64,000 nt of DNA from contig CALWKF010000005.1 in the NCBI GenBank assembly GCA_944381215.1, positions 1 to 64,000 on the forward strand. Direction: 5' to 3'. Position numbers and translations under genes: made by a program. Below the pieces are notes generated by a model. That model ran no database searches and was not told the DNA's origin. It saw only the letters and a program-made list of their open reading frames with translations. Of this stretch, positions 17,144 through 50,578 are shown piece after piece. Positions within the stretch are counted from its first letter, which is position 1. Every line of letters starts with the position of its first letter. This DNA comes from an uncultured Clostridia bacterium. GTDB taxonomy: Bacteria > Bacillota > Clostridia > Christensenellales > UBA1242.

Positions 17144-17674
17144 ATGTCTAATTTTATGAGTACTGAACCTAAATGGTACGTGTTGCACACTTTCTCTGGA
17201 TACGAGGCGGTTGCCAAGCAGAATCTCGAACAGGTCGTTGAAAATGGTAATTTGCACAATCGTATTTTTGATATCGTGATTCCTACCGAGGATGTAATCG
17301 AGGACAATGACGGCAAAAAGAAAATTGTTACTCGCAAATCAATGCCTTGCTACATTTTCATAAAGATGATTTATGGGGATGACATTTGGCACACCATTAC
17401 TCACACTCGCGGAATTACTGGTTTCGTTGGCCCCAAGGGTCGCCCGCTACCTCTTACTGACGAGGAAATTCGCAAAATGCACCTTGAAAAAGTAACTGTG
17501 GACTTCTCGTTAGAGGTAGGGGATGAGGTGCGTATTTTAAGCGGTGCTTTGGTAAACACTGTGTGCAAAGTTACAAAAGTCGACCCCGAGAATCAGCGTT
17601 GTAACGTAATTGTGAATATGTTTGGCCGCGAAACTCCGTTGGAGTTGTCCTATTCCCAAGTTGCCAAAGTTTAA
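17144..17674 (+). CDS. nusG: Transcription termination/antitermination protein NusG
   Basis: 176 residues. The NGN domain begins KWYVLHTFSGYEAVAKQNLE (about 6-25) and includes the GxxGFVG segment (GITGFVGPKGRPLPL, about 90-104). The C-terminal KOW domain begins LEVGDEVRILSGAL (about 125-138). NusG binds RNA polymerase and links it to Rho or the ribosome. The gene follows secE by 11 bases, with AAGGGGG before ATG. The KOW loop reads SGALVNT where most bacteria have GPF, a small departure. Confidence 0.97.
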   Translation: MSNFMSTEPKWYVLHTFSGYEAVAKQNLEQVVENGNLHNRIFDIVIPTEDVIEDNDGKKKIVTRKSMPCYIFIKMIYGDDIWHTITHTRGITGFVGPKGRPLPLTDEEIRKMHLEKVTVDFSLEVGDEVRILSGALVNTVCKVTKVDPENQRCNVIVNMFGRETPLELSYSQVAKV

Positions 17675-18030
17675 TAGATAGAATATAGAAACATATCTGC
17701 TTCGTCGATAGGTAGTAAATTGCTCGGTTACGTATTTCTATATACGCGCCCTCGCAATTTCTACCATACTCCTCGCATCTATATTCCTCTATTCTATCTA
17801 TCTCTTTCTTACGGCTTTCGCAATTTTTAACATGTTCCTTGTATCTACACTATTCTATATTATTTAATTTTGTCTGTTGTAGTGTGGTTAGTGTATTTGT
17901 GCAAGATATTTTTATTGGGTGTGCGCCTACGCACAGGTGCCCAACGCGCCCGCAAAATTTTGCGGTGGCAAAAAATTTATGCCGTACACTGAGGTGTACG
18001 CGCGTTAGGCACCCTCGAGATAATGTAAAT
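17672..18030. repeat. GC-rich structured element, copy 1 (between nusG and rplK)
   Basis: A non-coding block that closely parallels the one at 48036-48345. Hairpin A: GGTAG-T-AAATTGC (17711-17723) with GCAATTTCTACC (17754-17765), enclosing CGTAT/ATACG. It is followed by CATACTCCTCGCATCT (17765-17780). A second right-arm-like block (17810-17846) ends CATGTTCCTTGTATCT. Then TTTATTGGGTGTGCGCCTAC with a GTGCG/CGCAC hairpin, a perfect palindrome CCGCAAAATTTTGCGG (17950-17965), and a GTACAC/GTGTAC tetraloop hairpin (17984-17999). The outer TAGATAGAATA (17674-17684) is inverted as TATTCTATCTA (17790-17800). It replaces a plain terminator after nusG. Confidence 0.6.
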
Positions 18031-18179
18031 TACAATTATAGCAATTTTACGCTATAAAAAGTTTTTGCATTTTAACCTTAATTCGGTTTATGCGCATTAG
18101 CGATAAACATATTTCGTGGGAGAGTAAATTGAAATCTTTTAACTTTTTGCTCGCTACTACCACATTGGAGGGAAAACTT

Positions 18180-46071: not shown

Positions 46072-48030
46072 TTGTCTAAAACTTACGATTCAAAAGATAT
46101 TGTCGTACTAGAAGGGCTCGATGCTGTGCGTATGCGCCCAGGTATGTACATAGGCACCACGGGGCCAAAGGGCCTACACCATCTGCTGTGGGAGATTGTG
46201 GACAACTCGGTCGACGAGATTGCAAACGGCTACGGCGACACAATCAAAGTAACTCTTGAAGAGGACGGCAGTGCACAGGTCGAGGACAACGGCCGTGGTA
46301 TTCCCGTCGATATTCACCCGCAAATGAAAGTCAGCGGTGTTGAAGTCGTATTTACGCAGTTGCACGCGGGCGGAAAGTTTGGAAACGATAACTATTCCTT
46401 CTCGGGCGGACTGCACGGCGTCGGCGCATCTGTTGCAAACGCGCTCTCTCGGTGGCTCACTGTGTCCGTTTTCCGCGAAGGGTACGAGTATGAAATGCAG
46501 TTTGAGAGCAAGGGCAGTGGTAACAAAATCAAGAGCGGTGTCCCCGTAGCCCCTCTAAAAAAGGTGGGTAAAACCAATAGAACGGGTACCTTGGTCCGCT
46601 TTATGCCCGACGACCGCGTGTTTGAGGACATCACCTTTGACCTAGAAACCGTATCGAAGCGTCTCCGCGAAATCGCCTTTCTAAACCGCGGAATCAGGAT
46701 AATTTTGGTTGACGAGCGCAAACTCGAGAACGGCGAGCCCTTTACCCAAGAGTATCGCTACGAAGGGGGCCTTAGCGACTTCGTAAAATACCTAAATGAG
46801 AATAAGACCGTCGAGCACCCCGACCCAATTTACATCGAGGCAAAGAGCGACCTTGTGCACATGGCGTGCGCTATGCAGTACACAAATAGTTACACCGAAA
46901 ACACATTTAGTTATGTAAACAACATCCCCACGAGCGAGGGTGGTACCCACGAAGCAGGCCTCAAAAACGCAATTACTCGCGCCTTCAATGACTTGGGCAA
47001 GCGCGCGGGGCTTATTAAAGACAAGGACCCCGCACTCACTGGTGAAGATTACCGCGAGGGACTTACTATCGTGCTCGCAATAAAAATGCGCAACGTGCAG
47101 TTCGAGGGCCAGACCAAGACCAAGCTCGGCAACACTGAGATAAAGCCCGAAGTGGAAAACCTAGCGTACACGAAATTACTCGAGTACTTCGACCAAAACA
47201 ATCACAAAAAGGTGCTCGAGCTCGCAATCAACAAGGGTAAGGCTGCAGCAAAGGTTCGTGAGGCTGCCAGAAAGGCCAAGGAAATCACCCGCGCGAAAAA
47301 CAGCATAGAAAACAGCAACCTTGTCGGCAAACTCAGCAGTTGTACAGGCAAAAAGCCCGAGAACAACGAGCTCTTTATCGTAGAGGGTGATAGTGCGGGC
47401 GGTAGTGCGAAAATGGCGCGTGATCGGAGTTTTCAGGCGATTTTGCCACTTCGTGGAAAGCCATTAAATGCCGAGAAAAAGAGGTTACAGCAAGTGCTTG
47501 CGAACGAGGAAATCCGCACAATAATTAGTGCCCTAGGGACTGGTATCGGCGAGGACTTTAACCTGTCTAATCTCAAATACCACAAGGTAATCATCCTTAG
47601 CGATGCCGACCAAGACGGTGCGCACATCAGGGCAATTTTACTGACATTCTTTTTTAGGTATATGAAGGAACTCGTGCTAAATGGCCACGTCTACATCGGC
47701 TTGCCTCCTCTGTACAAGGTGCAGAAGCGCGACACGATCGAATATGTCTACTCGGATGCGGAGTTGCCAGAGGCGATTGAGCGAATAGGCAAGGGCTACA
47801 CGATTCAGCGTTACAAAGGTCTAGGTGAAATGAACCCCGAGCAACTTTGGGACACGACCATGAACCCCGCCACGCGCTCGCTAATGCGTGTAACTCTTGA
47901 GGATGTCGCCAATGCCGAACTCATGATTACTACTCTCATGGGCGACAATATTGAGGCCCGCAAGGCTTATATTAGTGAGCACGCGAACTTCAACAAGGTC
48001 GACAACTTCAAACCTACGAACAGCCAATAA
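46072..48030 (+). CDS. Type IIA DNA topoisomerase, subunit B (GyrB/ParE family)
   Basis: 652 residues with a TTG start after AGAGGAG. GHKL ATPase: LEGLDAVRMRPGMYIG, EIVDNSVDEIANG, VEDNGRGIPV, GGLHGVGASVANALS. The transducer has KTKLGNTEIKP. TOPRIM: EGDSAGGSAKMARDR (about 438-452), PLRGKPLNAEK, DADQDGAHIR (about 511-520). C-terminal QRYKGLGEMNPEQLWDTTM is present. Length and motifs fit both GyrB and ParE. The matching A subunit is nearby but separated by an LRR gene and seems to lack the gyrase-specific box, so a second, topo IV-like enzyme is as likely as gyrase. Confidence 0.93.
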   Translation: MSKTYDSKDIVVLEGLDAVRMRPGMYIGTTGPKGLHHLLWEIVDNSVDEIANGYGDTIKVTLEEDGSAQVEDNGRGIPVDIHPQMKVSGVEVVFTQLHAGGKFGNDNYSFSGGLHGVGASVANALSRWLTVSVFREGYEYEMQFESKGSGNKIKSGVPVAPLKKVGKTNRTGTLVRFMPDDRVFEDITFDLETVSKRLREIAFLNRGIRIILVDERKLENGEPFTQEYRYEGGLSDFVKYLNENKTVEHPDPIYIEAKSDLVHMACAMQYTNSYTENTFSYVNNIPTSEGGTHEAGLKNAITRAFNDLGKRAGLIKDKDPALTGEDYREGLTIVLAIKMRNVQFEGQTKTKLGNTEIKPEVENLAYTKLLEYFDQNNHKKVLELAINKGKAAAKVREAARKAKEITRAKNSIENSNLVGKLSSCTGKKPENNELFIVEGDSAGGSAKMARDRSFQAILPLRGKPLNAEKKRLQQVLANEEIRTIISALGTGIGEDFNLSNLKYHKVIILSDADQDGAHIRAILLTFFFRYMKELVLNGHVYIGLPPLYKVQKRDTIEYVYSDAELPEAIERIGKGYTIQRYKGLGEMNPEQLWDTTMNPATRSLMRVTLEDVANAELMITTLMGDNIEARKAYISEHANFNKVDNFKPTNSQ

Positions 48031-48035
48031 TTTAT

Positions 48036-48345
48036 AATACCTAATCTACTGCGTCGTATGTCAAAAATCGCTCAGTTATGTATGTCTTTATACATGCCTT
48101 CGTGATTTTTGGCATGCTCCTTGTATCTTAGGCATTCTAAATTATTGGGGAATGTACTCTGTTCGGGGTGGTAGTGTGTAGGAATATGTATGCAGTAAAT
48201 TTATTGGGAGTGCGCCCACGCACCCGCATTCTGCATTGTTCGTGCACCATACTCTGTTGGAGTGGGGGATGTGTAGGGTATTTTTTGAGGTAATCTACCG
48301 CGTGTGTGGCTACACACCGCCCACGCATGTTACTATTATGAGCAG
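48036..48345. repeat. GC-rich structured element, copy 2 (after topoisomerase B gene)
   Basis: Parallels the block after nusG. Hairpin A: ATGTC-AAAAATCGC (48058-48071) with GTGATTTTT-GGCAT (48102-48115), enclosing ATGTAT/ATACAT, then GCATGCTCCTTGTATCT. Next ATTCTAAATTATT, a GT-rich stretch, TTTATTGGGAGTGCGCCCAC with a GTGCG/CGCAC hairpin, and a GTGTGT/ACACAC tetraloop hairpin (48302-48317). Pairing is kept although the bases differ from copy 1. Fills the 340-base gap before the LRR gene. Confidence 0.6.
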
Positions 48346-48370
48346 GACTGCTCGCTAAAAGGTTTTTAAT

Positions 48371-50578
48371 ATGCAAGAATTTGAAAAATTTACAATTAGT
48401 GATGATGGGGTCTTGACTGTTAAGTCGGGAGTTACTTCGATATCTTCGAGTGATTTCGCCATTTATTTAGGGGCAATCAAGAAAGTTGTCTTGCCCGAGG
48501 GTATTAGGACTATCGGGCCAAATGCGTTTCGCGACTTTGTGTCAATGACTGAAATCAATCTACCTGACTCAATCGACCCAAAAGGCATAGGCGATGGTGC
48601 ATTTTACGGATGTACTTCGCTCGAAAAGATTAAACTCCCCAAAAACCTAGCCGAAGTACCGCAAAATATGTGCTTTGGCTGTGAAAGCCTAAACAGTGTC
48701 GAGATGGGCGATGAGGTCAAATATATTGGGCGCGTGGCGTTTGGAAAGTGTACACAACTCACGAGTTTTACTTGCCCCCGCGAATTGACGGTAATTAACG
48801 AAGGCGCGTTTGTAGACTGCGCGAATCTTGAATCAATTACGTTTAATGACAAGTTAAAAATTGTGTCATACGATGCGTTTTCGGACACCAAATTATCGAG
48901 GCTCGTGCTCCCCGATTCAGTCGAGGCGTTTTTTGCGGCGGTGAGCGGAAACGAGTTTGATTTCGTGTCGCTCCCATACAAGGCTGACTTCGACCGCGCC
49001 GACTCTTTTTTGGAGCTTGACGTTCGCTATAAAGATAAAATTGTACACGGCAATCGTGATGAAATGGGCTCCGTAATTACTGGCGACCCGAAATACGGCG
49101 CGATTTTGGTAGACTGTGAGACCTTGGGCGGAAACTCCTTAGTTTTCGAGGTTGTCCCTAAAAATAGCAAAATTTATTTTGGTGATAAAGAGGGGAAATT
49201 AGTTGTCATGCCCTTTGCCGATATTAGAGCAAAGGTTACCAGCAGAAACGAACTAGAGGCCTTGCGCACTAAACAATTTCCCAAGCTCCTCGACTTTTGG
49301 TTTGCGCTAAAAGACTCAAACAAAAATATGAATAAAACCCCGTTACCAAATATCGCAGTGGTTAAGGGAATGCCACGCGACGAAATACCACAGTTTTACC
49401 TAAATAACAATATGGAAAACTGGGTCGAAATTTCGAGAATTGCTAATTGCCAGACCGATGAGGGCAGGAGTTCGCTATTTGGACTTGCGCACGCACTCGG
49501 CGTATTTAGTAACAGCGGGGCAGAGTCGAAAGAGGCGACAAACTACATAAAAATGTACATTCTAGACAACTATTCCGAAGACCAAATTCACGAAATGTTC
49601 AACTTTAATGCCGAAGATACCCCCTATAACCCCGAGTTTGCCAAGTTTTTTATGCAGTACTTTAACAAAAACCCGCGATTTATGCAAATTCCCGATGAAA
49701 TAACGGACACGATTACCGATTATATGAACGCGGCGCACGATTCATTCAAGAAAGTGCTCGAGGCTTTTCCAAACAAACGCGTGGTCACGAGGCAAGATAA
49801 CGACCGCTTAACCCCCGAAATTGTGGGCAAATTTCTAAACACTACCTCGTATAAAAACGTCCCTAGCGACCTAATGCCACTTGCCAAAACGGTCTCCAAA
49901 TACGGTTACTCGCGTGAGGCGTTTGATAAACTGGCCTCGTGGTATCAAGAGGGCGTGGCAATTCCCGAAAATAGATTGCGACTATTTTGCGAACCCGACA
50001 CTGTTCTTAACACGGGCGAAGATAGAGTCGTAACCTACGAGCTTTTGGGCAAGAAAAACCCGCTATGTGCAGTGCTCGGGGACATTACAAATTGTTGTCA
50101 GCGCGTAAACAATGTCGGCGGAAATTGCGTAAAGTACGGAATGACCGAGCCAAATTCAGGTTTTGTGGTACTAAGATCAGGCAGTCAAATCATCGGGCAA
50201 GCGTGGGTGTGGTATGACGAAACTACGCACCAGTTAACGCTCGACAATATCGAGGTGCCTCGGGCTGTGCAGAACGTGATTCAAAAGGATAGCAACTACC
50301 AAACCGAAATCATTGACTGCCTAGATAGACTTGGTTCGGGCTTTGTCGCTGGAATGGAGAAACGAGGGTTAAAGGTTAGTAAAGTTACAATAGGAAAGGG
50401 TTATAATGATTTTAATAACATTCTCGAAAAACACTATAAAACGCTTGAGAGTGTTCAAACCTTGACTGAATATAATGGATATACCGATGCAGCGGGCGCG
50501 CAATTTTTGTTGACCACGCCCGAGCAAGAGCGAATAAAGAAAAATGCCATTTATAACATGATGGAGCAAACTAGGTAA
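48371..50578 (+). CDS. Leucine-rich repeat (BspA-like) protein with C-terminal 'DITNCC' domain, paralog 1
   Basis: 735 residues, no signal peptide or membrane helix, so probably cytoplasmic. Residues ~15-210 are BspA-type LRR_5 repeats (for example VVLPEGIRTIGPNAFRDFVS and MCFGCESLNSVEMGDEVKYI). Residues ~300-560 are a mostly helical region shared with the paralog (AHALGVFSNSGAESKEATNY; KMYILDNYSEDQ). The C-terminal ~150 begin LGDITNCCQRVNNVGGNC and include GFVVLRSGSQIIGQAWVWYD and LDNIEVP, which resemble GNAT-like strands (inference). Sits between the two topoisomerase subunit genes. Confidence 0.85.
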   Translation: MQEFEKFTISDDGVLTVKSGVTSISSSDFAIYLGAIKKVVLPEGIRTIGPNAFRDFVSMTEINLPDSIDPKGIGDGAFYGCTSLEKIKLPKNLAEVPQNMCFGCESLNSVEMGDEVKYIGRVAFGKCTQLTSFTCPRELTVINEGAFVDCANLESITFNDKLKIVSYDAFSDTKLSRLVLPDSVEAFFAAVSGNEFDFVSLPYKADFDRADSFLELDVRYKDKIVHGNRDEMGSVITGDPKYGAILVDCETLGGNSLVFEVVPKNSKIYFGDKEGKLVVMPFADIRAKVTSRNELEALRTKQFPKLLDFWFALKDSNKNMNKTPLPNIAVVKGMPRDEIPQFYLNNNMENWVEISRIANCQTDEGRSSLFGLAHALGVFSNSGAESKEATNYIKMYILDNYSEDQIHEMFNFNAEDTPYNPEFAKFFMQYFNKNPRFMQIPDEITDTITDYMNAAHDSFKKVLEAFPNKRVVTRQDNDRLTPEIVGKFLNTTSYKNVPSDLMPLAKTVSKYGYSREAFDKLASWYQEGVAIPENRLRLFCEPDTVLNTGEDRVVTYELLGKKNPLCAVLGDITNCCQRVNNVGGNCVKYGMTEPNSGFVVLRSGSQIIGQAWVWYDETTHQLTLDNIEVPRAVQNVIQKDSNYQTEIIDCLDRLGSGFVAGMEKRGLKVSKVTIGKGYNDFNNILEKHYKTLESVQTLTEYNGYTDAAGAQFLLTTPEQERIKKNAIYNMMEQTR

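Follow-up and report, generated by a model that had tools for sequence, protein, structure and literature searches.

The two structured blocks examined here each open with a copy of the same hairpin, hairpin A, of about 128 bases, which is apparently undescribed and is spread over many Clostridia-related bacteria, and whose pairing looks to be that of DNA and not of RNA on either strand. To us, a small DNA element of a mobile or recombination type seems likelier than an RNA. With some hesitation, we judge it probable that this element is palindromic and non-autonomous, belongs broadly to the REP/MITE kind, has a core of about 112 bp and outer arms of 5-9 bp, and acts in its folded form. The window, the whole stretch of DNA analysed, comprises 64,000 nucleotides of a 1.22-Mb genome in 22 contigs (labelled G000); the closest records to its NusG are metagenome-assembled genomes of uncultured Clostridia and Christensenella from gut and rumen. 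The names nusG, parE, gyrB, FtsQ-like and recR are those that we presume from the translations and from known protein families.

A preliminary description had placed two structured, GC-rich blocks with one shared order of parts directly after nusG and the topoisomerase B subunit gene (parE-like), and this is where they lie in the sequence (Table 1). Both are structured, as their folding beats that of shuffles (z -7.3 and -4.0), and their likeness goes beyond chance, more copies being present in the same genome and in relatives. Compensating changes within hairpin A were also confirmed, namely CGTAT/ATACG versus TGTAT/ATACA and GGTAG/CTACC versus ATGTC/GGCAT, the latter with one G.T. The idea of a single shared element holds for hairpin A, which is homologous between the blocks; the rest of each is a composite, in which hairpin A is followed by other elements, a GTGCG-N4-CGCAC repeat among them, and in block 1 additionally by a branched structure. 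The GTGCG repeat hairpin, which had been counted as a shared part, is a separate repeat found mostly without hairpin A. A third pair said to covary, GTACAC/GTGTAC versus GTGTGT/ACACAC, brings together unrelated hairpins without homology: the former (about 17984-17999) lies within the branched structure, which by inspection is shared by relatives that lack hairpin A in the nusG-rplK gap, and the latter (about 48300-48318) is a different hairpin of the GTGCG-repeat type. Hairpin A itself has a GC fraction of only 0.35-0.38, and it is the stretch after 17920 that is GC-rich. The final 7 bases of the parE-like gene form part of the arm of hairpin A copy 2.

Table 1. Features of the two blocks, in window coordinates
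Feature	Position	Strand	Remarks
nusG	17144..17674	+	Directly 5' of hairpin A copy 1; ORF and translation
Hairpin A copy 1	17674..17801	+	Model 17682-17793 with perfect 8-bp outer arms 17674-17681 / 17794-17801
Core of partial second 3' half of hairpin A, CATGTTCCTTGTATCT	17831..17846	+	Pattern match, 0 mismatches
GTGCG repeat hairpin, TTTATTGGG-GTGCGCC-ACGCAC, separate repeat family	17911..17934	+	TTTATTGGG-GTGCGCC type: 20 matches in own genome, 0 in reversed control
Topoisomerase B subunit gene (parE-like)	46072..48030	+	Directly 5' of hairpin A copy 2; ORF and translation
Hairpin A copy 2	48024..48148	+	Model 48031-48141 with perfect 7-bp outer arms 48024-48030 / 48142-48148
GTGCG repeat hairpin 3' of hairpin A copy 2	48200..48223	+	Pattern match

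Covariance-model searches for further copies in this genome and its relatives were positive. A model built from five copies of G000 (R1; after nusG, parE, gyrB, the FtsQ-like gene and recR) detected the hairpin in 13 of 59 relatives (E <= 0.01; E-values here and below are rough). A model of 40 sequences (R2) gave matches in 46 of the 391 genomes sampled from the class (E <= 1e-4) and, for the phylum, in 28 of 398 (E <= 1e-5), G000 being included in both counts; G000 itself carries eight. We consider the matches credible because of their outer-arm pairing and their position at stop codons, neither of which was built into the model. The preliminary description could not assign the blocks to a named family; Rfam gave no match to hairpin A at gathering or relaxed thresholds, and we found no published description in the openly accessible literature. 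Four exact patterns gave one match in viral contigs, an isolated hairpin resembling the inner module (L369). A structured repeat that occurs in roughly 7-12% of sampled genomes and is apparently unnamed would be a substantial addition to the small repeats of bacteria.

The hairpin A model has 112 positions, with 38 pairs in six helices. In the 40-sequence alignment, 79% of cells are paired and the covariation score is 0.526; shuffles give 0.173 (sd 0.010), and sliding the structure gives no more than 0.18. Covariation, proposed from two copies, is thus borne out in the family. Most of the conserved positions are unpaired, and they make up two nested modules that resemble each other, the outer with CT[GT]CGT[CT] on its 5' side and [TG]CCTTG on its 3' side, the inner with CTC[AG]GT[CT]ACGTA and TACGC[TG]CC[CT]T. 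We propose that these modules are protein recognition sites and that hairpin A works at the level of DNA, either as a cruciform or as a folded single strand, with stems that would be free to vary provided that pairing stays. The covariation had been taken to argue for selection on the structure of an RNA or a folded DNA mobile element. As an argument for selection this is too strong, since template switching in replication can yield the same double changes and perfect stems (PMC8794818); as for the two kinds of molecule, folded DNA is supported and RNA disfavoured by the makeup of the pairs. Across the well-paired columns of 87 non-redundant copies, we counted 1668 Watson-Crick, 35 G.T and 46 A.C cells, whereas SRP RNA hairpins from 30 relatives, used as a control, have 723 Watson-Crick, 153 G.U and 5 A.C, with G.U at 17.5% of pairs and 31:1 over A.C. 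A second set, comprising 31 copies and drawn from three closed genomes that belong to a single family of another class, gave 706, 12 and 20, respectively. Between orthologous copies in G000 and G004, 44 double changes keep the pair, with 5 changes to G.T and 9 to A.C. As a G.U on one strand is an A.C on the other, the near parity of G.T and A.C argues against an RNA on either strand. One caveat is that steady template switching would likewise clear G.U intermediates; yet this is not so in SRP RNA. The result is a caution for RNA discovery, in that strong covariation, usually taken as proof of an RNA, here behaves as DNA pairing, and the ratio of G.U to A.C against an SRP control offers a simple, reusable test.

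Hairpin A often directly follows a stop codon, in one orientation. Using mechanically called ORFs, we found 50 copies out of 117 with a same-strand stop codon ending between -15 and +10 relative to the model start, compared with 7 for the opposite strand; the distribution peaks at -8/-7, so that the outer arm abuts the stop codon. The second set agrees (13 of 31 versus 0 of 31 on the opposite strand), and in some of its copies the stop is supplied by the element's own TTATAA or CTAA. The sense orientation may arise partly from the co-orientation of genes and replication. Copies elsewhere include those of G420 and, by the same flank, of G193 and G257, which lie antisense to the rRNA in the 23S-5S spacer. 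The spacer copies, at eight loci, are near-identical and low-scoring, and a location behind the 5S rRNA was ruled out by the Rfam coordinates of one of these loci (L146).

Where hairpin A follows nusG and parE, a terminator would be expected, as had been remarked. Ten stop-adjacent copies sit only 11-51 nt upstream of a same-strand ORF; therefore, termination is unlikely as a general role. An intrinsic terminator was also rejected on its T tract, at least five T within the 8 nt after the right arm occurring in 16% of copies and in 10% of controls, a slight enrichment. Intrinsic-terminator-like sites precede copies 18 times on the sense side and 12 times on the other, a weak contrast, and are plainly visible before copies in G039 and G048. 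More broadly, hairpin A might be a 3'-UTR RNA hairpin that acts after transcription of the upstream gene, as a terminator, an mRNA stabiliser or a protein-binding site. The sense orientation directly behind stop codons, the strong predicted folds and the retention of orthologous copies with their structure all fit such a role, but we think it unlikely, given that G.T is no commoner than A.C, that some copies lie within tight gene pairs, that there is no Rfam family and that T tracts are so little enriched.

Beyond the model, the outer arms are often perfect for 5-9 bp and their sequence is specific to the copy. A pairing score of 5 or more is reached by 55% of copies, compared with 2.5% in shuffled pairings, and in G048 similar copies at different sites have distinct complementary ends (CTCTG/CAGAG, CTCCG/CGGAG, CCCGA/TCGGG). 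Behind gyrB, we take the left arm to be native coding sequence because congeners without the element share the GyrB ending, a similar L..LDI. The right arm is the reverse complement of the left in both G000 and G004 despite differing codons (GACTTGGA/TCCAAGTC versus TGACCTCGA/TCGAGGTCA). The FtsQ-like and parE copies likewise overlap coding ends. Insertion into a pre-existing host palindrome was considered and rejected, as by eye none lies behind gyrB or parE in element-free congeners. Complementarity of the arms would be maintained in the DNA itself, the simplest means being template switching between the arms, which may also lengthen the palindrome by a few bases into host sequence. Some arm mismatches are conserved among copies, which would not be expected if template switching left the arms perfect every time. 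As the arms track synonymous changes in coding sequence, the choice between template switching and selection is directly testable here.

If template switching keeps the arms complementary, hairpin A could be mainly a neutral palindrome, in which chance or inherited inverted repeats persist with no protein or function. Such switching is known to make double changes and perfect stems of this kind (PMC8794818), and the gyrB right arms do follow codon changes. We nonetheless hold this to be improbable: the two unpaired modules are conserved across families, and arm copying alone would erase them, and the sense position at stop codons is recurrent.

Matching sites differ in whether they hold the element. 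A search of 80 nusG loci with R2 found the hairpin after nusG in only two (L213 and L214); six congeners lack it behind parE and four behind gyrB, G006 having, by eye, a separate family hairpin at gyrB. One G004 copy is missing at the counterpart site in G000. G039 has seven dispersed similar copies and G048 ten, a shared core at different sites, as in MITEs; compared by eye, their flanks gave neither a consistent target-site duplication nor a clean empty site. In six congeners a parC-like gene comes straight after parE; in this place G000 has hairpin A and then a leucine-rich-repeat-like gene (window region 48030-50578), and G001 has half a hairpin. The parE operon looks split at the hairpin.

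As a folded-DNA element, hairpin A would have spread within some genomes, mostly in the sense orientation and often flush behind a stop codon, with its modules read by a recognising protein. Low copy numbers, the absence of a linked transposase or recombinase and the lack of an established target-site duplication speak against this, and the copies shared by G000 and G004 look stable, which a host function would explain equally well. A narrower version is doubtful: hairpin A would represent a class of folded-DNA elements that inserts at gene ends and finishes by inverted fold-back copying of the left host flank, thereby giving each copy its own terminal arms, with a putative single-strand DNA enzyme reading the two nested modules.

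Y1 transposases and HUH-like motifs provided no transposase or recombinase link to hairpin A, and a simple regular expression found no HUH-type motif in ORFs around the copies. Weak-scoring RAYT-like Y1 genes are present in 22 of 46 positive and 84 of 345 negative genomes (p = 0.0013, kinship ignored), as might be expected if these copies were REP elements mobilised by RAYT-like Y1 transposases. This is very improbable, and largely refuted by the absence of hairpin A from all 30 Y1 loci of positive genomes. Moreover, copies are numerous in G048 and G267, neither of which gave a Y1 match, the sole Y1 gene found in G000 is a broken IS200-type gene with stop codons (G000:C8:29007-29338), and intact RAYT-like genes adjoin other short repeats. 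These intact genes, of 220-320 aa, occur in several Clostridia, and some are adjoined by short GGGACGGTTC...GTCC-type repeats.

Similar to RAYT-associated REPs and REPINs, which are palindromic extragenic DNA acting as a folded single strand (PMC2817692), hairpin A would work folded; unlike them, it lies away from RAYT genes and is absent near RAYT-like ones, and, of 117 copies, 16 have GTAG, the end tag of these REPs, in their outer parts. CGTC-tagged REPs are short palindromic extragenic repeats, mostly 3' of genes, with an unpaired tag and no known transposase; they have been reported from five phyla, mostly alpha-Proteobacteria, as fixed families with stems of 8-9 bp and the tag at one end (PMC3733652). 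Hairpin A is likewise a palindromic extragenic repeat. CGT[CT] occurs in its outer bubble in 77 of 117 copies, but there the motif lies inside a two-sided bubble; hairpin A differs further in that its stems vary freely and that it spans 112-128 bp instead of a single 8-9 bp stem with a 4-5 nt loop. It may be likened by kind to bcr1 and other structured intergenic repeats of the Gram-positive Bacillus and Clostridium (PMC2267715; Clop-1, Clot-1).

We can all but dismiss an integron attC-type recombination site. An attC site is an imperfect hairpin, recognised as a folded strand, with variable stems and conserved unpaired positions, behind stop codons and in one orientation; hairpin A shares the stems, unpaired positions, stop-codon position and orientation, but the R''/R' box pair RYYYAAC...GTTRRRY is found in only 2 of 117 copies (0.45 expected by shuffling) and, with no cassette arrays seen, copies are single and behind chromosomal housekeeping genes.

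Several other repeats and structures lie near hairpin A. Besides the two in Table 1, GTGCG-N4-CGCAC repeats occur at 48290-48320 and in 18 further places in G000, with TTAT[CT]GGG or GCGGTAA next to the hairpin, tandem copies on contigs C4 and C10 and one of the form GTGTG/CACAC. In G004, a GTGCG repeat lies within the hairpin A that follows the FtsQ-like gene (G004:C38:3803-3940), and at the nusG locus (L213, 2542-2971) hairpin A is mixed with GTGCG repeats. The nusG-rplK order is also present in relatives. In this gap of the window, 17935-18015 forms a GC-rich branched structure, GGTGCC...GGCACC, and inspection revealed similar structures at six loci of otherwise differing congeners. Just 5' of rplK (18116-18163) lies a motif, GTGGGAGA...TCG...ACCAC, with a variable inner stem; it occurs in 63 of the 81 nusG-rplK sequences examined, has no Rfam match and is, we presume, possibly a ribosomal-protein (L1/L11) autoregulatory leader. 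Another repeat frequent in G000, GGTCATCCTGAG...GACGAAGGATCTCATTCC, was seen at eight loci.
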